Positions 54,053-63,693 of a stretch of DNA of 64,000 nt are shown piece by piece. The notes under the pieces are model-generated. The model was not told the origin of the DNA. It saw only the letters and a program-made list of their open reading frames with translations, and did not search any database. The translations under genes and the position numbers were made by a program. The stretch lies in assembly GCA_947259495.1 (NCBI GenBank), contig CAMYLV010000020.1:1-64000 (forward strand). The letters are read 5' to 3'. The DNA is from an uncultured Desulfobacterales bacterium. Lineage in GTDB: Bacteria; Desulfobacterota; Desulfobacteria; Desulfobacterales; JAHEIW01. The first letter of the stretch is position 1, and each line of letters opens with the position of its first letter.

Positions 54053-54940
54053 TTATATAAGACCGGCAGCCTCCATGATATCCGGCACCTTTTCTTCCTT
54101 GCCGATGGCCATGATGTGCACACCGTCACACATCTTTTCTTCATGAATGCGTTTAATCATGCGGCCCGTAATTTCAATGCCTTTGGCCAGAGCCTGGCCT
54201 TTGGGTGCCGATGCCATCTCATCGATCAGATCCTGCGGGACGAAAACCCCGGCGATATTCTTGTTCATAAAACGGGCCATGGGAGCAGAGGTCAGCAAAA
54301 TGATGCCGGCCAGGATTTTTACATGGAACTGTCTGGCGTAATCCATGAATTCTTTGAACTTGTCCAGATCATAGACTGCCTGGGTCTGAATAAACTCCGC
54401 ACCGGCCTCGAGCTTTTTTTCAAATTTGATCAGTTGCGGTTCAAGCGGATCCGCCTCGGGCGTCACGATGGCACCGGCACAGAATGAAACCCCGCCATCC
54501 AGCTCGTTGCCGCCGAGATCTTTGCCCGTCTCCATTGTGCGAACCGTTTTCAACAGCTGGCTTGAGTCCATATCAAATACGCTTTTGGCCTCTTTGTGAT
54601 CCCCTAACATGACCGAATCACCAGTGAGGCAGAGAACATTTTGGATACCGCGCGAAGAGGCAAACAGAAGATCCGCCTGCAATGCCAGCCGGTTGCGATC
54701 CCGGCAGGTCATCTGCAGGATGACTTCCCCGCCCATTTCTTTGACCATCATCGCCCCGCCCAGCGACGGATAGCGCATCACCGAGCTTTGATGATCGGTG
54801 ACATTCATGGCATCGACTTTGTCTTTTAATAACTCAATATGGTGCTTGAATTTTTCAAGGTTCGTCCCTTTGGGAGGGGCGACCTCGCTGGTCACCACAA
54901 ATTTGCCGGATTCAAGGGCCTCTTTGAATTTCGTTGGCAT
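54053..54940 (-). CDS. metF: Methylenetetrahydrofolate reductase MetF
   Basis: A 295-residue FAD enzyme that reduces methylene-tetrahydrofolate to methyl-tetrahydrofolate in the Wood-Ljungdahl route and methionine synthesis. Key residues by analogy with E. coli MetF: Glu19 (VTSEVAPPKG), Asp108 (LCLTGDSV) and Gln187 (FIQTQAVYD). It is the short bacterial form without a regulatory domain. ATG with GAAGGGAAG upstream. Last gene of the operon; MetV lies 96 bases before it, and MetF-MetV pairs form the reductase core in acetogens. Confidence 0.94.
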   Translation of the reverse strand: MPTKFKEALESGKFVVTSEVAPPKGTNLEKFKHHIELLKDKVDAMNVTDHQSSVMRYPSLGGAMMVKEMGGEVILQMTCRDRNRLALQADLLFASSRGIQNVLCLTGDSVMLGDHKEAKSVFDMDSSQLLKTVRTMETGKDLGGNELDGGVSFCAGAIVTPEADPLEPQLIKFEKKLEAGAEFIQTQAVYDLDKFKEFMDYARQFHVKILAGIILLTSAPMARFMNKNIAGVFVPQDLIDEMASAPKGQALAKGIEITGRMIKRIHEEKMCDGVHIMAIGKEEKVPDIMEAAGLI

Positions 54941-55036: not shown

Positions 55037-55690
55037 TCAAGCTTCGGGAAGCTTAAATTTACCGGGTTTGGGCTCACCCAGATGATTACGCGGTTTTTGA
55101 TATTTCCGCATGGAATCAATCCGTCCCAGCTCCATTAGGCGATTATAAATCAAGGTCCAGACACAGTCCTTGTTCACATCGATTTCGCATTTACCGTGAT
55201 TGGTGCCGCCGCAGGGTCCGTTGACCAGGCCTTTGTGACAGTTGGTCACCGGGCAGATGCCGCCGGTTTCCCCGATGATGCAGGTGCCACACTGGGTGCA
55301 GATCTCATCGAACAGTCCCACCGCTGTTTCTTTGCCGATAAACAGGGTATCCAGAGCAGGAATCACCATCCTGCTTAACTGCCGGGCAATGCTTTGAACG
55401 CCAAAGGCGCAGGTCATGATCAGCAGCGCATCGGCCTGATTGATCTGTTCGCCGAAATCACCCAGAAATTCGCGGGTTAAATTATCGCAGGCAACCGGAA
55501 CCACCGTTTGACCGGTGACCATCTTACCCTTCGTGGACAACTCTTCTTTCATCGCGCGTACTTCCGGATCACCACCGGTACGAGTGAGCGTCACACAGGT
55601 TCCGCAGCCAATGATGAAAATCCGGTTGAGCCCCTTCAAAAGGCGCTCGATTTCTTTTTCCGGTTTTTTTTGCGTTATGGATCGAATCAT
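55037..55690 (-). CDS. metV: MetV-type zinc/iron-sulfur partner of methylenetetrahydrofolate reductase
   Basis: A 217-residue protein of the MTHFR C-terminal-domain family (MetV). It has a Rossmann-like N-terminal part (RIFIIGCGTCVTLTRTGGDP) and a Cys-rich C-terminal part: CTQCGTCIIGETGGICPVTNC, then GLVNGPCGGTNHGKCEI (only partly quoted here; cysteines at spacing for one [4Fe-4S] and a zinc site). In acetogens MetV brings electrons to MetF from a larger complex. Its start overlaps the NuoF-like gene by four bases (ATGA), so the two products should be made together. Confidence 0.93.
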   Translation of the reverse strand: MIRSITQKKPEKEIERLLKGLNRIFIIGCGTCVTLTRTGGDPEVRAMKEELSTKGKMVTGQTVVPVACDNLTREFLGDFGEQINQADALLIMTCAFGVQSIARQLSRMVIPALDTLFIGKETAVGLFDEICTQCGTCIIGETGGICPVTNCHKGLVNGPCGGTNHGKCEIDVNKDCVWTLIYNRLMELGRIDSMRKYQKPRNHLGEPKPGKFKLPEA

Positions 55691-58600
55691 ATCGCATTCT
55701 CCTCTTTTTCAAGATCGCATCGGAGGCAGCGGATGGCTTCGCGGTAAGCCTCCTCTTCGCTAAATCCTTTTTCGACTTCTCTGAAATCCTTTATCCGGTC
55801 CCGGGCATCCTCAATCCCGACGCCCACCCTGGGTTTGTCTTCCATACTTTCTTCTTCCAGCGCCAGTTTTGTACCCGTATGCCTGGGGGATTTTTCATCC
55901 GGGATATACACGCGGCTTTTGTCACCGCCTAAGAATTTGTCGATGGCGATGGCTGCGCGTCTGCCGGATGAAATGGCGCGAATCACAAAAGTCGGGCCGG
56001 TGGTAAAGTCGCCACCGGCAAAAACACCCGGGATATTGGTGGCCAGCGTATTGGTGTCCACCACCAGTGCGCCCCAGAGTTCGCGCTCCAGCTGGCTGTC
56101 GGCCGATAGAAAAGACATGTCGGCGGCCTGGCCGATGGACACAATCACATTGTCGGCATCCACAAAGCGCGTATCTTCGAGATCACAGGTCGGATTGAAG
56201 CAGCCCTCGTCATCAAACACACAGACGCAGCGGGTGAACTCCACTCCGGTCACGTGCCCCTTTTCGTGGGTGATTTTGCTGGGCGACTGGTCGGCGTTAA
56301 TAATGATGCCCTCATCGATGGCCTCTTCAACATCCTGTTCCCAGGCCGGCATCTCGTCGCGGGGTTCCAGACAGAATATTTGCGCTTCCTGTGCACCGGC
56401 TCTTAAGGCGGTGCGGGCGACATCCACGGCCACATTGCCGCCGCCGATGATCACCGTTTTGCCGCTTAAAGGCACCTTTTTGCCCATGCGGACCTGGGTT
56501 AAAAAATCGAGACCGTAGTAAAGGCCCTCAAGGCCTTCTTCTTCACCGGGGATGCCGATTTGCTTGCTGGCCTGGGCCCCGGCGGCAATGAAGACGGCGC
56601 TAAAGCCCTCATCGAGCAGGTCGCTAAAGGTGTGTTTGGCGTCAATAGGTGAATTATAGCGGATATCTACCCCGCAGTTTTGGATATACTGGATCTCTTC
56701 TTCGATCACCTTGTGCGGCAGCCTGAACTCGGGAACCGCAATGCCGAGCATGCCGCCCGCCACGGGCTGGGCTTCGAAAACCGTGGTCTGATATCCCATT
56801 TTGGCCAGAAAATAGGCGCAGGTTAAGCCGGCCGGACCGGCGCCGACCACGGCGACTTTCTGGGGACGGGTTACTTCAAACGGCTCTCTTTGCGGGCCGA
56901 TGTTTTCAAAATACCAGTCTGAAGCGACGCGCTTAAGGGCCCGAATCGCAACCGGCTGGTCGAGCTCACCCCGGCGGCATTTAAATTCGCAGGGATGGAT
57001 ACAGATACGCCCGCAGACCGCCGGAAATGGATTGCGCTCCCGGATGATTTCAACGGACTTGGCGTAATCTCCTTCGGCGATGGCGGCCACATAGTTAGGC
57101 ACATCGATGCCTGCCGGGCAGGCATGCTGGCAGGCGGAGATGACCATCGAATCGCAAACCGCACCGGCACAGCGGTGTTCTTTGATGTGGTCTTCGAATT
57201 CTTTGAGAAAATATTTCAGGGTGGAAAGGGCCGGTTTGGAGCAGGCCTGTCCCAGGCCGCACAGGGAGGCCTCGGTCAGGGTCTCTCCCAGCTGGCGGAT
57301 GGTGTCGATATCTTCCATGCGGCCCTGGCCGCGGGTGATGCGCGTGAGAATTTCCAGCAACTGGGTGGTGCCCAGACGGCAGGGTGCGCATTTGCCGCAG
57401 GACTCTGACTGGGTGAAGCTCAAGAAAAAGCGGGCGATTTCAACCATGCAGTTGTTTTCGTCCATGACCACCATGCCGCCAGATCCCATGATGGCCCCGA
57501 TGCGCTGGACCGTATCGTAATCGATAGGCAGACTTAAAAACTGTGGGGGCACACAGCCGCCGGCGGGACCACCCATCTGAACCGCCTTAAACGCCCGGCC
57601 CTTGGGAATACCGCCGCCGATATCATAAATCACCTCTTTGACGGTGGAACCGATGGGCACTTCCACCAGTCCGGTGTTGTTGACCTTGCCGGCCAGAGAA
57701 AAGATTTTGGTGCCCTTGCTCTCGTCAGTACCCACCTGGCCGTACCATTCTGCTCCGTTTTTAATGATCAGCGCTACATTGGCCCAGGTTTCAACGTTAT
57801 TGATATTGGTGGGTTTGGCGTCGATACCCGCTTGAGCCGGAAACGGCGGTCTGGCACGGGGCATACCGCGCTTGCCCTCAATGGAGGCCATCAGGGCGGT
57901 TTCTTCACCGCACACAAACGCGCCGGCGCCCAGTCGCAGCGAGAGATCGAAGTTAAAGCCGGTGCCCAGGATATTTTCGCCCAGAAGTCCCAGTTCATTG
58001 GCCTGCTCGATTGCGATGTTTAGATGATCGATCGCTATCGGATACTCTTCACGCACATAAATGTAGCCGTACTCGCTGCCCATGGCATAGGCACCGATGA
58101 GCATACCTTCCACCACGGCGTGGGGGTCCCCTTCTAAAATGGCGCGATCCATGAATGCGCCGGGGTCGCCTTCGTCCGCGTTGCACACCGTATATTTGGG
58201 CCGGCCTTCAGCCTGGCGCGCGAATTTCCATTTGAGGCCGGTGGGAAATCCCGCGCCGCCGCGGCCTCTCAGCTTTGCCGTCTGAACCTCATCGATCACC
58301 TTTTCGGGTGACATTTTCGATAGCGCCTTGACCAGAGCCTGATAGCCGCCGGCGGCAATGTAATGTTCGATGCGGGTCGGATCGATGCGGCCGCAGTTGG
58401 CCAGAACCCGGCGTTCCTGCTTGGCGTAAAAAGGGATCTGGTTGCGGTAAAATACCGGTTGAAACGTTTTGGGCTCGTGATAGGCCAGACGGTCGATGAG
58501 CTGGCTGCGTTTCAAGGTCCGAGCGACGATTTCGACGGCATCATCCGGCTCCACTTCCTGGTATTGAACCCCCATGGGCTCAATGGCAATCACCGGCGCC

Positions 58601-58818
58601 TTGGCACAAAAGCCGTGACAGCCGGTTGCACGGATTTCCACCTGGCGCTCAAGCCTCTGGTTTGTGATCTCATCTTTTAAGGACTCCAGCACACCGGCGG
58701 CACCGTATGCCCGGCAGCCGGTCATACACACATGCACTTCGATGGTCCCTTCTTTTTTGCGGGACAATATCTTGCTGCGGAGCCACTCCAGCTTTCCAAT
58801 GGATGAAAGCTTCTCCAT
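55687..58818 (-). CDS. NuoF-GltD fusion: NADH-binding flavin iron-sulfur subunit joined to a second NAD(P)H:FAD module
   Basis: A 1043-residue multi-domain protein. Order: a thioredoxin-like [2Fe-2S] domain (Cys31, 35, 67, 71), a NuoF/HydB FMN- and NADH-binding core (RGRGGAGFPTGLKWKF at 184-199; GAGAFVCGEETALMAS near 297-312), a C-terminal [4Fe-4S] site (Cys474/477/480/520), then from about 560 a GltD-like part with Cys563/567 and Cys602/606/610/614 for two clusters and an FAD motif VVGAGPAGLTCAYF near 657, a second Rossmann fold (VIIGGGNVAVDVARTALRAG) and a closing CLRC. It could exchange electrons between NAD(H), NADP(H) and clusters. It lies between nuoE and metV. Confidence 0.92.
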   Translation of the reverse strand: MEKLSSIGKLEWLRSKILSRKKEGTIEVHVCMTGCRAYGAAGVLESLKDEITNQRLERQVEIRATGCHGFCAKAPVIAIEPMGVQYQEVEPDDAVEIVARTLKRSQLIDRLAYHEPKTFQPVFYRNQIPFYAKQERRVLANCGRIDPTRIEHYIAAGGYQALVKALSKMSPEKVIDEVQTAKLRGRGGAGFPTGLKWKFARQAEGRPKYTVCNADEGDPGAFMDRAILEGDPHAVVEGMLIGAYAMGSEYGYIYVREEYPIAIDHLNIAIEQANELGLLGENILGTGFNFDLSLRLGAGAFVCGEETALMASIEGKRGMPRARPPFPAQAGIDAKPTNINNVETWANVALIIKNGAEWYGQVGTDESKGTKIFSLAGKVNNTGLVEVPIGSTVKEVIYDIGGGIPKGRAFKAVQMGGPAGGCVPPQFLSLPIDYDTVQRIGAIMGSGGMVVMDENNCMVEIARFFLSFTQSESCGKCAPCRLGTTQLLEILTRITRGQGRMEDIDTIRQLGETLTEASLCGLGQACSKPALSTLKYFLKEFEDHIKEHRCAGAVCDSMVISACQHACPAGIDVPNYVAAIAEGDYAKSVEIIRERNPFPAVCGRICIHPCEFKCRRGELDQPVAIRALKRVASDWYFENIGPQREPFEVTRPQKVAVVGAGPAGLTCAYFLAKMGYQTTVFEAQPVAGGMLGIAVPEFRLPHKVIEEEIQYIQNCGVDIRYNSPIDAKHTFSDLLDEGFSAVFIAAGAQASKQIGIPGEEEGLEGLYYGLDFLTQVRMGKKVPLSGKTVIIGGGNVAVDVARTALRAGAQEAQIFCLEPRDEMPAWEQDVEEAIDEGIIINADQSPSKITHEKGHVTGVEFTRCVCVFDDEGCFNPTCDLEDTRFVDADNVIVSIGQAADMSFLSADSQLERELWGALVVDTNTLATNIPGVFAGGDFTTGPTFVIRAISSGRRAAIAIDKFLGGDKSRVYIPDEKSPRHTGTKLALEEESMEDKPRVGVGIEDARDRIKDFREVEKGFSEEEAYREAIRCLRCDLEKEENAI

Positions 58819-58833
58819 ATAGTACTTTCTCCC

Positions 58834-59313
58834 TTATTTTTTTTGATACTCTCCCAGAACGCTGCTGACTTTGGTCGGGGAAAGCTTGCCGAAATAATCC
58901 CGATTGATCATCATGGTGGGTGCCAGAAAACAGGCCCCGAGACAGGCAACCGTTTCGAGGGTAAATTGATAGTCGGAACTGGTTTCACCCTCTTTTAAAT
59001 TCAGTTCTTTTTGCATCAAGCGCAGAACGCTGCGGCCGCCCTTGACGTGGCAGGCCGTACCGCGGCAGACCCTCAGAACATATTTGCCTTTGGGCTTCAG
59101 GGCAAACCCGGCATAAAACGTAATAACACCTTGAACCTCTGAGGGGTACAAATTCATGGCCTCGGCAATCAGCTCAATCGATTCGGGCGGAATATATCCG
59201 GTATGTTCCTGCACTTCCTGCAACAGGGGGATGAGCCCCCATTTGACGCCTTTATGCTTTTCTATAATTTCGTGAATCCGGTCCCAATCAATCTCTGGTG
59301 GTTTCATATTCAT
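58834..59313 (-). CDS. nuoE: NuoE-like [2Fe-2S] subunit
   Basis: A 159-residue thioredoxin-fold subunit with Cys83, Cys88, Cys124 and Cys128 (VCRGTAC and CLGAC) binding one [2Fe-2S]. Typical words YPSEVQGVITFYAGF and PTMMINRDYFGKLSP. It usually sits beside NuoF in NADH-linked hydrogenases, formate dehydrogenases and complex I. It ends 15 bases before the NuoF-GltD gene and follows the molybdopterin subunit gene after 95 bases. Confidence 0.94.
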   Translation of the reverse strand: MNMKPPEIDWDRIHEIIEKHKGVKWGLIPLLQEVQEHTGYIPPESIELIAEAMNLYPSEVQGVITFYAGFALKPKGKYVLRVCRGTACHVKGGRSVLRLMQKELNLKEGETSSDYQFTLETVACLGACFLAPTMMINRDYFGKLSPTKVSSVLGEYQKK

Positions 59314-59408: not shown

Positions 59409-62072
59409 TTAAACTTTTGTTATTTTGGCCGCACATGTTTTCCAGCCGGTCGTGTTGGGATCTGCCAGGTCGTTTAAGTCAATTAGATTCATGGCATCGT
59501 TGGCGTTGACCGCCAGCGGCACAAACAGCTGGCCGGGTTCGATACGATTGCTGCGTCCAATTTTCCGTTTGATCTCTCCCCAGCGGGTTTCTATTCGTAC
59601 GGCATCGCCATCTTTTAATTTCAGTTTGTCTGCATCCGCGACGCTGATGTCAACCTCTCCTCCGTAATCAAATTCTCGAATGCGGTCAGAGGCGCTCGTT
59701 CGAGTGCCGCTGCCTAAATGGTAACGCAAAGAGCCCAATATGGCCGTAAACGGGTAGTCGCTATCAGCAGGTTCGTCAGCGGTTGAAACCACCGGTGAAA
59801 AGGATATCTTTTCCCGGGCGCCGGCGGCACCAAAGACAGCCATCGGGCTGGATGTTTTCACCCAGCCGGGCCCACGACCATTCATGTCAGCGTAGGCGGG
59901 CACCAGATGTCGAATCTCTTCTCGGATTTTTTCCACCGTTCCGTAAGCCTCAGCAGCCCCCAGCCGTTTGGCCAGCAGATCTAAAATCTCCCAGTCGGGT
60001 TTTGCCTTACCGGGCGGGGACACCACCGGTGAAAAGCCCTGGATTCGGCCTTCCAGATTTGTAAAGGAGCCGCTTTTTTCGCTCGCAGCGGCACCCGGTA
60101 AAACCACATCTGCGAGCTTGACGATCTCACTGTCCAGAATATCCTGTACGACGAAGAAATCCAGATTTGCCAGCGCAGCTTTCACGCGTTGCGGTTGCGG
60201 TAAAGAGCGCAACGGATTTTCACCCATGATATACAGGGCCTTGATCTGGCCACTTTCGGCCGCCTTGATAACGCGGCCCAGATTGAGACCCGGATCCGGG
60301 GAAATTTTTACCCCCCAGTTCTTTTCCCATGTTTTTCTGGCGCTATCTTCAGCCAGTGGCATTCGTCCGGGGAGCAGGTTCGGCACCGTGCCCATATCCA
60401 TGGCGCCGCTCTGGTTGTTTTCTCTGGCAAGAATATAAATACCGGCGCCTTCTGCGCCCAGGCTTCCGGTCATCAAAGACAGATTGAGAATCGCTCCCAG
60501 GGTATGCGTGCCGTAGCGCTGCTGTAAAATGCCATGACCGATGACAAAGGCGAGCCGTTTTTCTTCTAAAAGCGCGGTCGTCGCATTCAGATCTTTCATC
60601 TCCAGCCCGGTCATGCGGCAGACCTTATCCACATCGAGCGAAGACAAAGCGTAGGTAAAGAGACTGAATCCTTCAGCGTAGTGATCGATAAATTCAGAGT
60701 CGTAGGCATTTGTTTCGTGCAGCAAAGCGGCCAGGGCATTGATCAGTTCCAGATCCGTCTGGGGTTTGACCGGAAGCCACAGCGATGCAAAACTGACCAG
60801 TTCCGTCTTGCGCGGATCGACCACAATCAGCGGCACGCCATTTTTAGCAATGCGCTTCAAGTAGTAGCTGACTACCGGAAGAGAATGGTTGGGATCGGCC
60901 CCCAGGACCACAATCACATCTGCCTTTTCCAGATCGCTGACTGGACTTGGACGACATCCGCCGCCGGTTTTTTGATCTAATATGGTCGACAGGAATTGTC
61001 CGGAAACGTATCCGCCATTATCGACGTTGTTTGTGCCGATCAGCACCCGGGCAATTTTTTGAAACAGATAATTTTCTTCATTGCTGCACTTTGAAGAACC
61101 CACAAAGGCGATACTCTGCGGGCCGCTTTCATCCCTAATATGACGCAACCGTTCGGCCACCTGGTCCAGGGCCTCGTCCCATGCAACCGGCGTCATCTGG
61201 AGGGTTTCACCTTCTCCCTTTTTGGGCATCATCGGCGCGATGATGCGCCGGCGCGAATTCAGAAAATCATGGGCAAAATGGCCGCGTACGCACAGGGTGG
61301 CTTTGTTGACGCTTTCGGTCAAATGCGCCGGATTAACGTCGATGACCTTGTTGGCCGATTGCCCCATGGCCAGGCTGCAGCCGACACCGCAAAACCCGCA
61401 GATCGAAAATGATTCTTCCGCCGGACTGCCGACGTATCGGCTGTTTTTTGCAGACAGCGCGCCGGTCGGACACAAGGAAACGCAGGTACCGCAAAAAGTG
61501 CAATTTGATTGCTCAAGTCCCTGTTCGTGAACCGTTGCCGGCCGGGACGCAAAGCCTCTCGAATTATAATCGATCGCACCGACGGCAACCAGTTCATGAT
61601 CTGCCCGGATGCATTTGCCGCACAGGATGCATTTACTCAGATCTCGAATTATAAACGGGTTGGCCTGTTCCAGCGGTTTATAATTGGGCATTGCATACAG
61701 ATTCGTCTCACCAATGCCCATTTGTGCCGCGACCCAGCGCAGCTGACAGCGGTTGCCTTTACTGCAAACAATGCAGGATTCCGGATGTTCGGCGATCATC
61801 AAACGGACGATATTGCGGCGATGGCTGATGATGCGCGGCGTGTCGGTCTGAATAGTCATATCCGGCGCAACCGGGGTGACACATGAAGCCATCAGACGGC
61901 CACTTTGTTCATCTTCCACCAGGCAAAGCCGACAGGCGCCAAAGGGTTTCAGGTCCGGATGGTAGCACAGGTGCGGAATTTTTATGTCATTTTGGGTCGC
62001 AGCTTGCAGTATCGAAGTCCCGGGGGGACAGCTAATCCTTTTGTTGTCGATGGTTAAGACAATTTTGTCCAA
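59409..62072 (-). CDS. NuoG/FdhA-like molybdopterin oxidoreductase lacking the formate-dehydrogenase Cys/Sec
   Basis: An 887-residue protein. N-terminal [2Fe-2S] (Cys36, 47, 50, 64), a His-Cys [4Fe-4S] (His96, Cys100, 103, 109), two ferredoxin-type sites (CILCGKC from 148; CTFCGTC from 191) and a Mo/W domain with its own [4Fe-4S] (CGFCGVGC from 225; Cys261). Formate dehydrogenases have Asn-Asn-Val-Asp, then about five residues later Cys or Sec followed by His; here NNVDNGGYVSGQF puts Ser357-Gly358 at that place. Residue identity is by eye. The [4Fe-4S] chain and the pterin-domain words (NNQSGAMDMGTVPNLLPG) are intact. Starts at TTG behind AAAAGGAG. It heads the FDH-like/NuoE/NuoF/MetV/MetF run. 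Confidence 0.85.
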   Translation of the reverse strand: MDKIVLTIDNKRISCPPGTSILQAATQNDIKIPHLCYHPDLKPFGACRLCLVEDEQSGRLMASCVTPVAPDMTIQTDTPRIISHRRNIVRLMIAEHPESCIVCSKGNRCQLRWVAAQMGIGETNLYAMPNYKPLEQANPFIIRDLSKCILCGKCIRADHELVAVGAIDYNSRGFASRPATVHEQGLEQSNCTFCGTCVSLCPTGALSAKNSRYVGSPAEESFSICGFCGVGCSLAMGQSANKVIDVNPAHLTESVNKATLCVRGHFAHDFLNSRRRIIAPMMPKKGEGETLQMTPVAWDEALDQVAERLRHIRDESGPQSIAFVGSSKCSNEENYLFQKIARVLIGTNNVDNGGYVSGQFLSTILDQKTGGGCRPSPVSDLEKADVIVVLGADPNHSLPVVSYYLKRIAKNGVPLIVVDPRKTELVSFASLWLPVKPQTDLELINALAALLHETNAYDSEFIDHYAEGFSLFTYALSSLDVDKVCRMTGLEMKDLNATTALLEEKRLAFVIGHGILQQRYGTHTLGAILNLSLMTGSLGAEGAGIYILARENNQSGAMDMGTVPNLLPGRMPLAEDSARKTWEKNWGVKISPDPGLNLGRVIKAAESGQIKALYIMGENPLRSLPQPQRVKAALANLDFFVVQDILDSEIVKLADVVLPGAAASEKSGSFTNLEGRIQGFSPVVSPPGKAKPDWEILDLLAKRLGAAEAYGTVEKIREEIRHLVPAYADMNGRGPGWVKTSSPMAVFGAAGAREKISFSPVVSTADEPADSDYPFTAILGSLRYHLGSGTRTSASDRIREFDYGGEVDISVADADKLKLKDGDAVRIETRWGEIKRKIGRSNRIEPGQLFVPLAVNANDAMNLIDLNDLADPNTTGWKTCAAKITKV

Positions 62073-62091
62073 GCGGCTGACTCCTTTTTTG

Positions 62092-62195
62092 GGAAGGTTG
62101 GCCGGTGGGCCCGCTAACCCGTTTGCCGGTTGGCCGGCAAAAGAAATGAAATCGCGGACAACGGGCTCAACGGGACAACCGGTAAACGGGTAAAC
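62092..62195. repeat. GGTTGGCC-type inverted repeat element, second copy
   Basis: AAGGTTGGCCGGTGGGCCCG, TTTGCCGGTTGGCCGGC on the left and ACAACGGGCTCAACGGGACA, ACCGGTAAACGGGTAAACC on the right: reiterated short units in opposite directions. Same style as 13753-13858. It separates the metF paralogue from the molybdopterin subunit gene. Confidence 0.5.
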
Positions 62196-63071
62196 CTATT
62201 TTAATTTAGCGGCATCCAGATAATTTTTTAGCTTTTCTTCACCACCGATTGTAATAATGTGGACTCCCTGACAGAGATCTTTCAGGCCGGTGACAATATC
62301 AGCAAATATTTCAGTGCTGGCTTTTAGTTTATCCGGTGCCCGGGCCAATTTTTGGATGATCCATTCCGGCACCAGGCCGGATTTTAAATGCCGGTTGAGA
62401 AAGCGGCCCATGCCGGCTGTTCGCAGGATCATGACCTCGGCGATGACCGGTATGTTAAATGTATCTACCCGATGTAAAAATTTGGCGAATTGATCTACGT
62501 CAAAAACCGGCGTTGTCAGAAAATATCCGGTGCCGAGTTTGGTCATTTCCTCCATTTCCTTCATTTCCAGATCGGGCACATTTTTGCCCCAGGCCGACTC
62601 CACGCCCGAGCCCACCAGAAAATCAGCTTTGGATTTGAGGGTATCGCCTTCGACGGTTTGCCCTTCTTTAATATGCTGCAGCACCGATTGCAGTTTGCCG
62701 GCATCAACATGAAAAAACATCATTTCCTGCAAACTGTCGCCGGTAATGCGGTAATCTTCGGTAAACACCAGCAGGTTGTCAATCCCGGCCTCATGGGCTT
62801 CAATCAAATCCTTTTGCAGCTGGATTCGATTTTTATCCCGTGTGGTGGTTTGATAAATCGGTTCGAATTGATTCTGATCTAAAAGTTGGCAGGTATTGAT
62901 GGTATCTCCGACGACACCCTCAAATTCGACTTCGGACAATGAAACGCCATCAACCCGCCCGCGCACTTTGGAAAGGCTGCGAACCAGATCTTCCGGCTCC
63001 TGATCAATGGGCGCCTGGATTTCCGAGGTCACAACAAACTGTTTTTTTTTCAAGGCTTCCTTTAGTTTCAT
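62196..63071 (-). CDS. Divergent MetF paralogue
   Basis: A 291-residue protein with the methylenetetrahydrofolate reductase fold and weak but clear likeness to the MetF at 54053. Glu17 (VTSEIQAPIDQE) and an Asp (LVFTEDYRITGD) are kept, but the conserved Gln near 187 of MetF is Thr (YFLTTPVFDVDQF against FIQTQAVYDLDKF), and VTDHQSSVMR of MetF is LSEVEFEGVV here. It may bind FAD and a different partner or folate derivative, or be a structural or regulatory subunit. GGAGGCACC precedes the ATG. It lies upstream of the molybdopterin gene on the same strand, 123 bases apart across a repeat, so it may share the operon. Confidence 0.85.
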   Translation of the reverse strand: MKLKEALKKKQFVVTSEIQAPIDQEPEDLVRSLSKVRGRVDGVSLSEVEFEGVVGDTINTCQLLDQNQFEPIYQTTTRDKNRIQLQKDLIEAHEAGIDNLLVFTEDYRITGDSLQEMMFFHVDAGKLQSVLQHIKEGQTVEGDTLKSKADFLVGSGVESAWGKNVPDLEMKEMEEMTKLGTGYFLTTPVFDVDQFAKFLHRVDTFNIPVIAEVMILRTAGMGRFLNRHLKSGLVPEWIIQKLARAPDKLKASTEIFADIVTGLKDLCQGVHIITIGGEEKLKNYLDAAKLK

Positions 63072-63120: not shown

Positions 63121-63693
63121 TTAACGCAGCTCTAACAAACGGGCCACTTCTTCTTTTAGCTGGGGCAGCGGAAACGGTTTGGAGAAACAGGCATCCGCAC
63201 CGTACTGCTTCATTTTTTTAAACTTGCCTTCGTCCAGATAAGCGGACAGTACGATTATCTTTGTGTTGGCCGTATCCGGATTTTTCTTAATTTTTTTGCA
63301 GACTTCATAGCCTTTGATATCCGGCATCATGATGTCCAGAATCAGAAGATGGGGGGCAAAATGATTGATTTGCAGCCCGGCTTCAAATCCGTCTGAAGCT
63401 GAAATGACCTCATAATCAAATTCATCCTCTTCCAGTGCCTGTACGATGGTTTCAACGATAATGGGATCATCGTCGACCACCAGGATTTTTCTTTTGAGGC
63501 TGTCCGCTTCCTGTGCCGGAATCGGAATGCCCTGCTTTTTCATGAAAAATTCCAGATCCGAGCGGTTGATACGGCGGTGTCCGCCCACGGTTTTATATGC
63601 TTTGATATGACCGGACTCGATCCAGTTGATAATGGTCTTGGCCGACACACTGCAAAGTTGACTGGCCTTGAAAACGGTCAATACGTCTTCCAT
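63121..63693 (-). CDS. Response regulator with N-terminal excisionase/MerR-type DNA-binding domain
   Basis: A 190-residue protein with reversed order compared with most response regulators. Residues 1-55 are an excisionase-like winged helix (TVFKASQLCSVSAKTIINWI, GHIKAYKTVGGHRRINRSDL) and residues 68-190 a receiver domain with acidic pocket VVDDDP, phospho-acceptor Asp in LLILDIMMPD, Ser/Thr in IIVLSAY and Lys in CFSKPFP. Start ATG with GAAAGGAGCG. It lies 49 bases upstream of the metF paralogue on the same strand and after a partial histidine kinase gene, so it may regulate the C1/redox operon. DNA targets are unknown. Confidence 0.9.
   Translation of the reverse strand: MEDVLTVFKASQLCSVSAKTIINWIESGHIKAYKTVGGHRRINRSDLEFFMKKQGIPIPAQEADSLKRKILVVDDDPIIVETIVQALEEDEFDYEVISASDGFEAGLQINHFAPHLLILDIMMPDIKGYEVCKKIKKNPDTANTKIIVLSAYLDEGKFKKMKQYGADACFSKPFPLPQLKEEVARLLELR

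Follow-up and report, generated by a model that had tools for sequence, protein, structure and literature searches.

A formate dehydrogenase-like subunit with a lost catalytic site in a conserved MetVF operon of Desulfobacterota

Many sulfate-reducing bacteria carry, within a conserved operon, a formate dehydrogenase (FDH)-like protein with Fe-S clusters and a dead active site. In the 64,000-nt stretch of an uncultured Desulfobacterales genome analysed here (the window), this protein, FdhL, is an 887-aa FDH/NuoG-like subunit encoded on the minus strand at 59409..62072, next to genes for NuoE, a NuoF-GltD fusion, MetV and MetF. The operon probably specifies a multi-subunit, NAD(P)H-linked methylene-tetrahydrofolate reductase (MTHFR) of the MetVF kind—the ‘X type’—in which dead-site FdhL serves as Fe-S wire and scaffold. 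Most likely, FdhL passes electrons between NAD(P)H and the folate enzyme by which the methyl group of CO2 or acetate metabolism is either formed or oxidised. How much energy the Wood-Ljungdahl pathway yields hinges on the electron donor or acceptor of MTHFR, which, to our knowledge, is not yet settled in many anaerobes, including sulfate reducers that oxidise acetate. The operon turns up repeatedly in Desulfobacterota, and annotation pipelines might be misled by its FDH subunit into predicting formate metabolism that does not exist.

The FdhL reading frame opens with TTG, preceded by AAGGAG, and the family models it matches best are those of FDH alpha and NuoG, with QrcB also listed. An AlphaFold model built from a 40-row alignment (pLDDT 86) adopts the NAD-FDH fold and is closest to NAD-FDHs, with Z-scores of 49.4 to 8j83, 46.9 to 9ktl and 44.7 to 6tg9. 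Residues were mapped by phmmer alignment to Rhodobacter capsulatus FdsA (6tg9_A), in which Cys386 is the Mo ligand and His387 and Arg587 are active-site residues (PMC7171172). FdsA Cys386-His387 (TDTCARVCHSP) aligns with FdhL Ser357-Gly358 (VDNGGYVSGQF; 60999..61004, minus strand), and the formate-binding Arg587 (LRGQNN) with Ala549 (LARENN; 60426..60428, minus strand). The alignment thus bears out the first-pass annotation, which had placed Ser357-Gly358 where FDHs have Cys/Sec-His, and shows the substrate Arg to be gone as well. The same annotation had all N-terminal clusters kept; this holds for every other Fe-S cysteine, but Asp158 (61599..61601, minus strand) replaces the fourth Cys of the first 4Fe-4S motif in the ferredoxin-like pair.

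Orthologues were sought in 58 relatives, in named genome contigs and in 395 genomes across the phylum. This yielded 59 MetVF-type orthologues—49 core (42-85% identity) and 10 divergent (38-40%) sequences, many from metagenome bins—and a comparison set of the 48 nearest relatives without neighbouring MetVF, TGA being taken as Sec. The named MAGs with orthologues are all Desulfobacterota or still labelled deltaproteobacteria or proteobacteria. At the catalytic places, where ForCE-type FDHs have Gln instead of His, Cys/Sec, His/Gln and Arg each occur in 0/59 MetVF-operon orthologues, whereas all three are present in 48/48 of the comparison FDHs; rows are sequences rather than independent events, some being near copies and some lying on contigs that stop before MetV. 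So stark a difference excludes chance, and the dead site is not a local mutation of the window’s FdhL. Formate chemistry is therefore not expected of FdhL, as had been considered possible from the window, and the pterin site is vestigial, which had been one of two options proposed for it. The other, action on a different substrate, fits poorly, the ligand position and its surroundings not being conserved.

The ligand column reads S in 29 core rows, F in 7, Y in 4, T in 3, A in 2 and G in 2, among others, and H, Y, N, T or R in divergent rows, giving the states S, F, Y, T, A, G, L, H, N and R over the whole clade. Serine was considered as a maintained substitute ligand and ruled out, because the position drifts freely across the clade. 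Nor is Cys373, put forward earlier as a possible rescuing metal ligand, a credible one, since no more than 15 of 49 close orthologues have Cys there and FDHs have Ala or Gly. By contrast with this drift of the pterin site, the cluster cysteines 36, 47, 50, 64, 100, 103, 109, 148, 151, 154, 191, 194, 197, 201, 225, 228, 232 and 261 are present in 59/59 orthologues. The Asp158 column holds D in 57/59 orthologues versus C in 47/48 FDHs; Asp in place of a 4Fe-4S ligand Cys may tune or open the cluster. The Lys that is invariant between [4Fe-4S] and pterin in FDHs corresponds to Arg263 in FdhL, a column with R in 48/49 core rows (Arg or Leu in the core) and K in 8/10 divergent ones; in FdhF, K44R retains 7% activity (PMC12176258).

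An FdhL tree built without the active-site columns united core, divergent and one Bacillota sequence (locus L076) in a single clade (SH-aLRT 100) beside active FDHs. Since the dead-site proteins form one clade next to true FDHs, one loss of the active site is, on this tree, enough to explain the data. The L076 gene (3548-6238, from a Bacillota bin, UBA8154) encodes a related dead-site FdhL (NNIDNSANLYNA) and adjoins NuoE/NuoF; its contig stops before any MetVF, and Cys is kept at the place of the clade’s Asp158.

FdhL remains under purifying selection. Its dN/dS is 0.09-0.11, as compared to 0.03-0.10 for the other operon genes, and a value of 0.10-0.14 for the pterin part argues that the gene is no pseudogene. 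Constraint is inverted relative to FDHs: mean identity in the Fe-S part is 71% in the clade versus 40% in FDHs, in the pterin part 49% versus 55%, and in the active-site loop 44% versus 83%. Of 108 pterin-domain columns invariant in FDHs, 59 are kept, 21 partially kept and 28—catalytic ones among them—lost in the clade; FDH-invariant polar residues are also gone at columns 398, 781, 787 and 861. FdhL is the fastest-evolving subunit, with a mean identity to the window of 58% versus 72-85% for the others. Taken together, the NAD-FDH-like model, the column losses and the inverted constraint indicate that the fold persists and the formate chemistry is gone.

With respect to the remainder of the operon, all genes lie on the minus strand in the order regulator, MetF paralogue, FdhL, NuoE, NuoF-GltD, MetV, MetF. 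The neighbours named in the first-pass annotation could all be identified: a NuoE-like [2Fe-2S] subunit homologous to BfuC/StnA with four conserved Cys (58834..59313, 159 aa), the NuoF-GltD fusion (55687..58818, 1043 aa; family matches and alignment), MetV (55037..55690, 217 aa; PF12225 and an NGPCGG motif) and the methylene-tetrahydrofolate reductase MetF (54053..54940, 295 aa; family matches). Absent from its list was a second, diverged MetF paralogue at 62196..63071 (291 aa; family matches). A PDB sequence search returned no relative of MetV. Among the 25 loci that extend 6.5 kb or more downstream, 24 have exactly the order FdhL-NuoE-NuoF/GltD-MetV-MetF, and the exception meets an assembly gap. 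From this synteny we infer that the operon proteins would form a physical complex.

The MetF paralogue lies upstream in 33/36 core loci with room for it and in 2/10 divergent ones; it is 70-96% conserved in core loci and missing in L045, L070 and most divergent loci. It retains the Glu, and the Gln of FIQTQ, which we take from E. coli MetF to be the folate site, reads Thr (YFLTT), so that the paralogue may be non-catalytic. Upstream of it, a 190-aa protein with HTH_17 and response-regulator receiver domain matches (63121..63693) is conserved in 35/36 core loci with room and 3/10 divergent ones; this orphan likely regulates the operon. The intergenic region before fdhL (62073-62195) is rich in CCGGTT/AACGGG palindromes, weak copies of which occur on another contig of the same genome (G000:C13). 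Scans for promoters and terminators gave nothing of note above shuffled sequences.

The electron module resembles that of bifurcating enzymes. NuoF-GltD comprises a thioredoxin-like [2Fe-2S] domain, an FMN/NADH domain, a 4Fe-4S domain, a hinge and a GltD-like FAD/NAD(P) domain, and its NuoF part aligns over the full length with HydB of the bifurcating NiFe-Bfu enzyme (7t2r_B, E 1e-220). The hinge His544..Cys550..Cys555 (H-x5-C-x4-C; 57154..57189), common to HydB and StnB, is invariant, as are C457 and T495 and the cluster cysteines in the orthologues covering them; C457, T495, H544, C550 and C555 belong to B1, B5 and B2/hinge, ligand roles assigned in the Bfu survey (PMC9304861). In the Stn structure, Zn sits at the hinge linker (PMC10482914). 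The core of a Bfu-family BfuB is thus present, but the ferredoxin-type 2[4Fe-4S] domain (B3/B4, IPR017896) of the BfuB end is absent, GltD/Fer4_20 following directly after the hinge. At the FAD-proximal site of GltD, K629 corresponds to StnC K170 and not to the Glu of NfnB; by homology, the GltD flavin would therefore be electron-transferring rather than bifurcating. Three FDHs with an intact site (L077, L081 and L082) carry the same fusion, their GltD parts being distant (39-42%), and the fusion may hence predate the link to MetVF.

An NADH- or NADPH-linked electron hub for methylene-THF reduction, possibly bifurcating, had been suggested from the window alone; the conserved operon and the invariant hinge and cluster ligands speak for such a MetVF system, one built on an FMN core of the bifurcation type. 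We envisage an FdhL ancestor that served an NAD(P)-linked FDH as catalytic subunit, this enzyme probably already comprising NuoE and a NuoF-GltD fusion. Its pterin site would have died once, FdhL being retained as Fe-S wire and scaffold that links the NuoEF/GltD module to MetV-MetF. Electrons would then pass, reversibly, from NAD(H)-FMN and nucleotide-FAD to the FdhL clusters, MetV, the MetF flavin and methylene-THF. In a sulfate reducer, we infer, the direction may be methyl-THF oxidation. Bifurcation (confurcation of NAD(H), the GltD nucleotide and methyl-THF) is plausible given the conserved FMN core, and its partner may be a nucleotide because the usual ferredoxin arm is missing. Possible, if doubtful in its entirety, is a ferredoxin-free three-way bifurcating MTHFR in which the dead FDH wire couples three partners: NAD(H) at the FMN, another nucleotide at GltD, and methylene/methyl-THF.

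FdhL could be a scaffold only, its pterin domain and proximal cluster holding the assembly together while MetV-MetF are fed directly by NuoEF/GltD or ferredoxin. This reading, which we consider unlikely, draws on Stn, where the FDH branch in StnC lies off the electron path: the FdhF-like domain is inactive, two clusters are off path, and their mutation blocks assembly (PMC10482914). Against it, none of the FdhL clusters varies among the 59 orthologues, in contrast to the drifting pterin part; moreover, in Stn electrons enter the chain through a GltD domain that is part of StnC itself, and FdhL lacks any further redox domain. These points do not decisively separate wire from scaffold, yet with all cluster ligands but one kept against a drifting pterin part, sequence conservation favours FdhL as a wire.

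Two further explanations would leave FdhL an enzyme. It might bind bis-MGD with Mo/W—held by Ser or by no protein ligand, as happens in other enzymes of the DMSO reductase family—and act on a substrate other than formate. Ser is the metal ligand in DMSO reductases, the fold is fully retained (Z 44-49 to FDHs), and some cofactor may still bind, given that roughly 55% of the pterin-domain positions invariant in FDHs (59/108) are retained. With ten states at the ligand position, a loop only 44% identical, Arg or Leu in the core for the cluster-pterin Lys, and columns 398, 781, 787 and 861 lost, we regard this as very improbable, and bis-MGD is presumably not bound. Barely credible is an FdhL that is still an FDH with displaced residues such as Cys373, MetVF being a mere neighbour. 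Its nearest family models, FDH alpha and NuoG, would agree with it, as would the existence of FDHs with the NuoF-GltD fusion (L077, L081 and L082), but Cys373 is confined to 15/49 sequences, His and Arg are lost too, the genome carries a Sec-type FDH at another locus, and no MetVF-operon orthologue retains the site.

Retention of a molybdopterin-oxidoreductase fold as an Fe-S or structural subunit without a working site is familiar from NuoG of complex I and from QrcB; FdhL lost its site independently, within a MetVF system that is soluble. FdsABG of R. capsulatus (6tg9) and the Bfu-type FDHs share its fold, NuoE/NuoF partners and—D158 excepted—N-terminal cluster set, and differ in the Cys/Sec, His and Arg that FdhL has lost and in the MetVF of its operon. 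StnABC of Sporomusa ovata (8oh5) offers a precedent for an inactive FdhF-like domain in a NuoG part, there needed for assembly (PMC10482914), and likewise has NuoE, a NuoF-type bifurcation core and a GltD-type FAD domain with the Lys ligand. In Stn, however, GltD is fused to the NuoG-like StnC and NuoF has a ferredoxin domain, while in the window GltD is fused to NuoF; the window’s partner is MetVF, unlike that of Stn, an Nfn-Bfu transhydrogenase. MetV-MetF with a pyridine-nucleotide module also make up the type III (MetVF-RnfC2, A. woodii) and type IV/6S (MetVF-HdrCBA-MvhD, M. thermoacetica) MTHFRs, but here that module is NuoEF-GltD-FdhL, and neither RnfC2 nor HdrCBA-MvhD is among the identified operon genes.

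The gene set itself, which the first-pass annotation did not recognise as known, has a name: in the accessible part of their paper, Yi et al. 2021 (PMC8515935) note that in Dethiosulfatarculus sandiegensis metFV is preceded by genes for NuoEFG homologues; they call this arrangement the ‘X type’, describe it as widespread among Desulfobacterales and Chloroflexi and as unstudied, and guess that it bifurcates. The window matches, with NuoEFG homologues directly upstream of metV-metF and a MetV bearing NGPCGG and PF12225. That part of their text mentions neither the dead FDH site and NuoF-GltD in place of the ferredoxin arm nor the MetF paralogue and nucleotide switch. The X-type operon is not described in the accessible portions of the paper on MTHFR types I-IV (PMC8760232) or of the Bfu survey (PMC9304861), in whose text MetF was not found. 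In the open literature consulted, we did not find the dead site, the GltD replacement or the nucleotide switch. The one-line X-type guess can now be turned into predictions: Mo/W and formate activity should be absent, a ferredoxin domain should not be needed, and nucleotide preference should be determined by YRR or CLE.

These last motifs occupy the GltD nucleotide-binding loop, which alignment and tree place at CLE816-818 in the window (56365..56373, minus strand) and which reads YRR in NADPH-type relatives. Orthologues have strictly YRR or CLE, never a mixture. In the NuoF-GltD tree, YRR occurs in 23 sequences (two of them FDH-type) and CLE in 19, with two independent changes. The exchange of RR for E suggests a change in preference from NADP to NAD, and the YRR/CLE changes are likely a convergent shift. 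Two loci of one genus, L041 and L042, share 83% identity in FdhL and 94% in the MetF paralogue, with only 72% in NuoF and 68% in NuoE; L041 NuoF is 81% identical to that of L044, from another family, and L042 NuoF 79% identical to the window’s. The NuoE/NuoF-GltD tree and identities for these three loci thus conflict with FdhL and the MetF paralogue, and the cassette seems to have been exchanged within the operon. Were the three-way bifurcating MTHFR correct, such a swap, bringing YRR or CLE, would retune the nucleotide used.

At the genome level, acetyl-CoA synthase is present in 29/31 operon carriers versus 240/364 other genomes (Fisher p = 0.001, which ignores phylogeny). The window’s own genome encodes DsrA and AcsB and, apart from the operon, a Sec-type FDH. 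It also holds a second MetV-MetF pair on contig G000:C38 (L179, 4793-11028), beside a 1308-aa GltD-HdrA-like protein, and a lone MetV-like gene at G000:C16:79031. Operon-bearing genomes make Moco; MoaC is missing from G438, G090 and G218, MoeA matches occur in each of them, those in G218 being weak, and the MoaC-less G438 and G090 both encode a Sec-type FDH.
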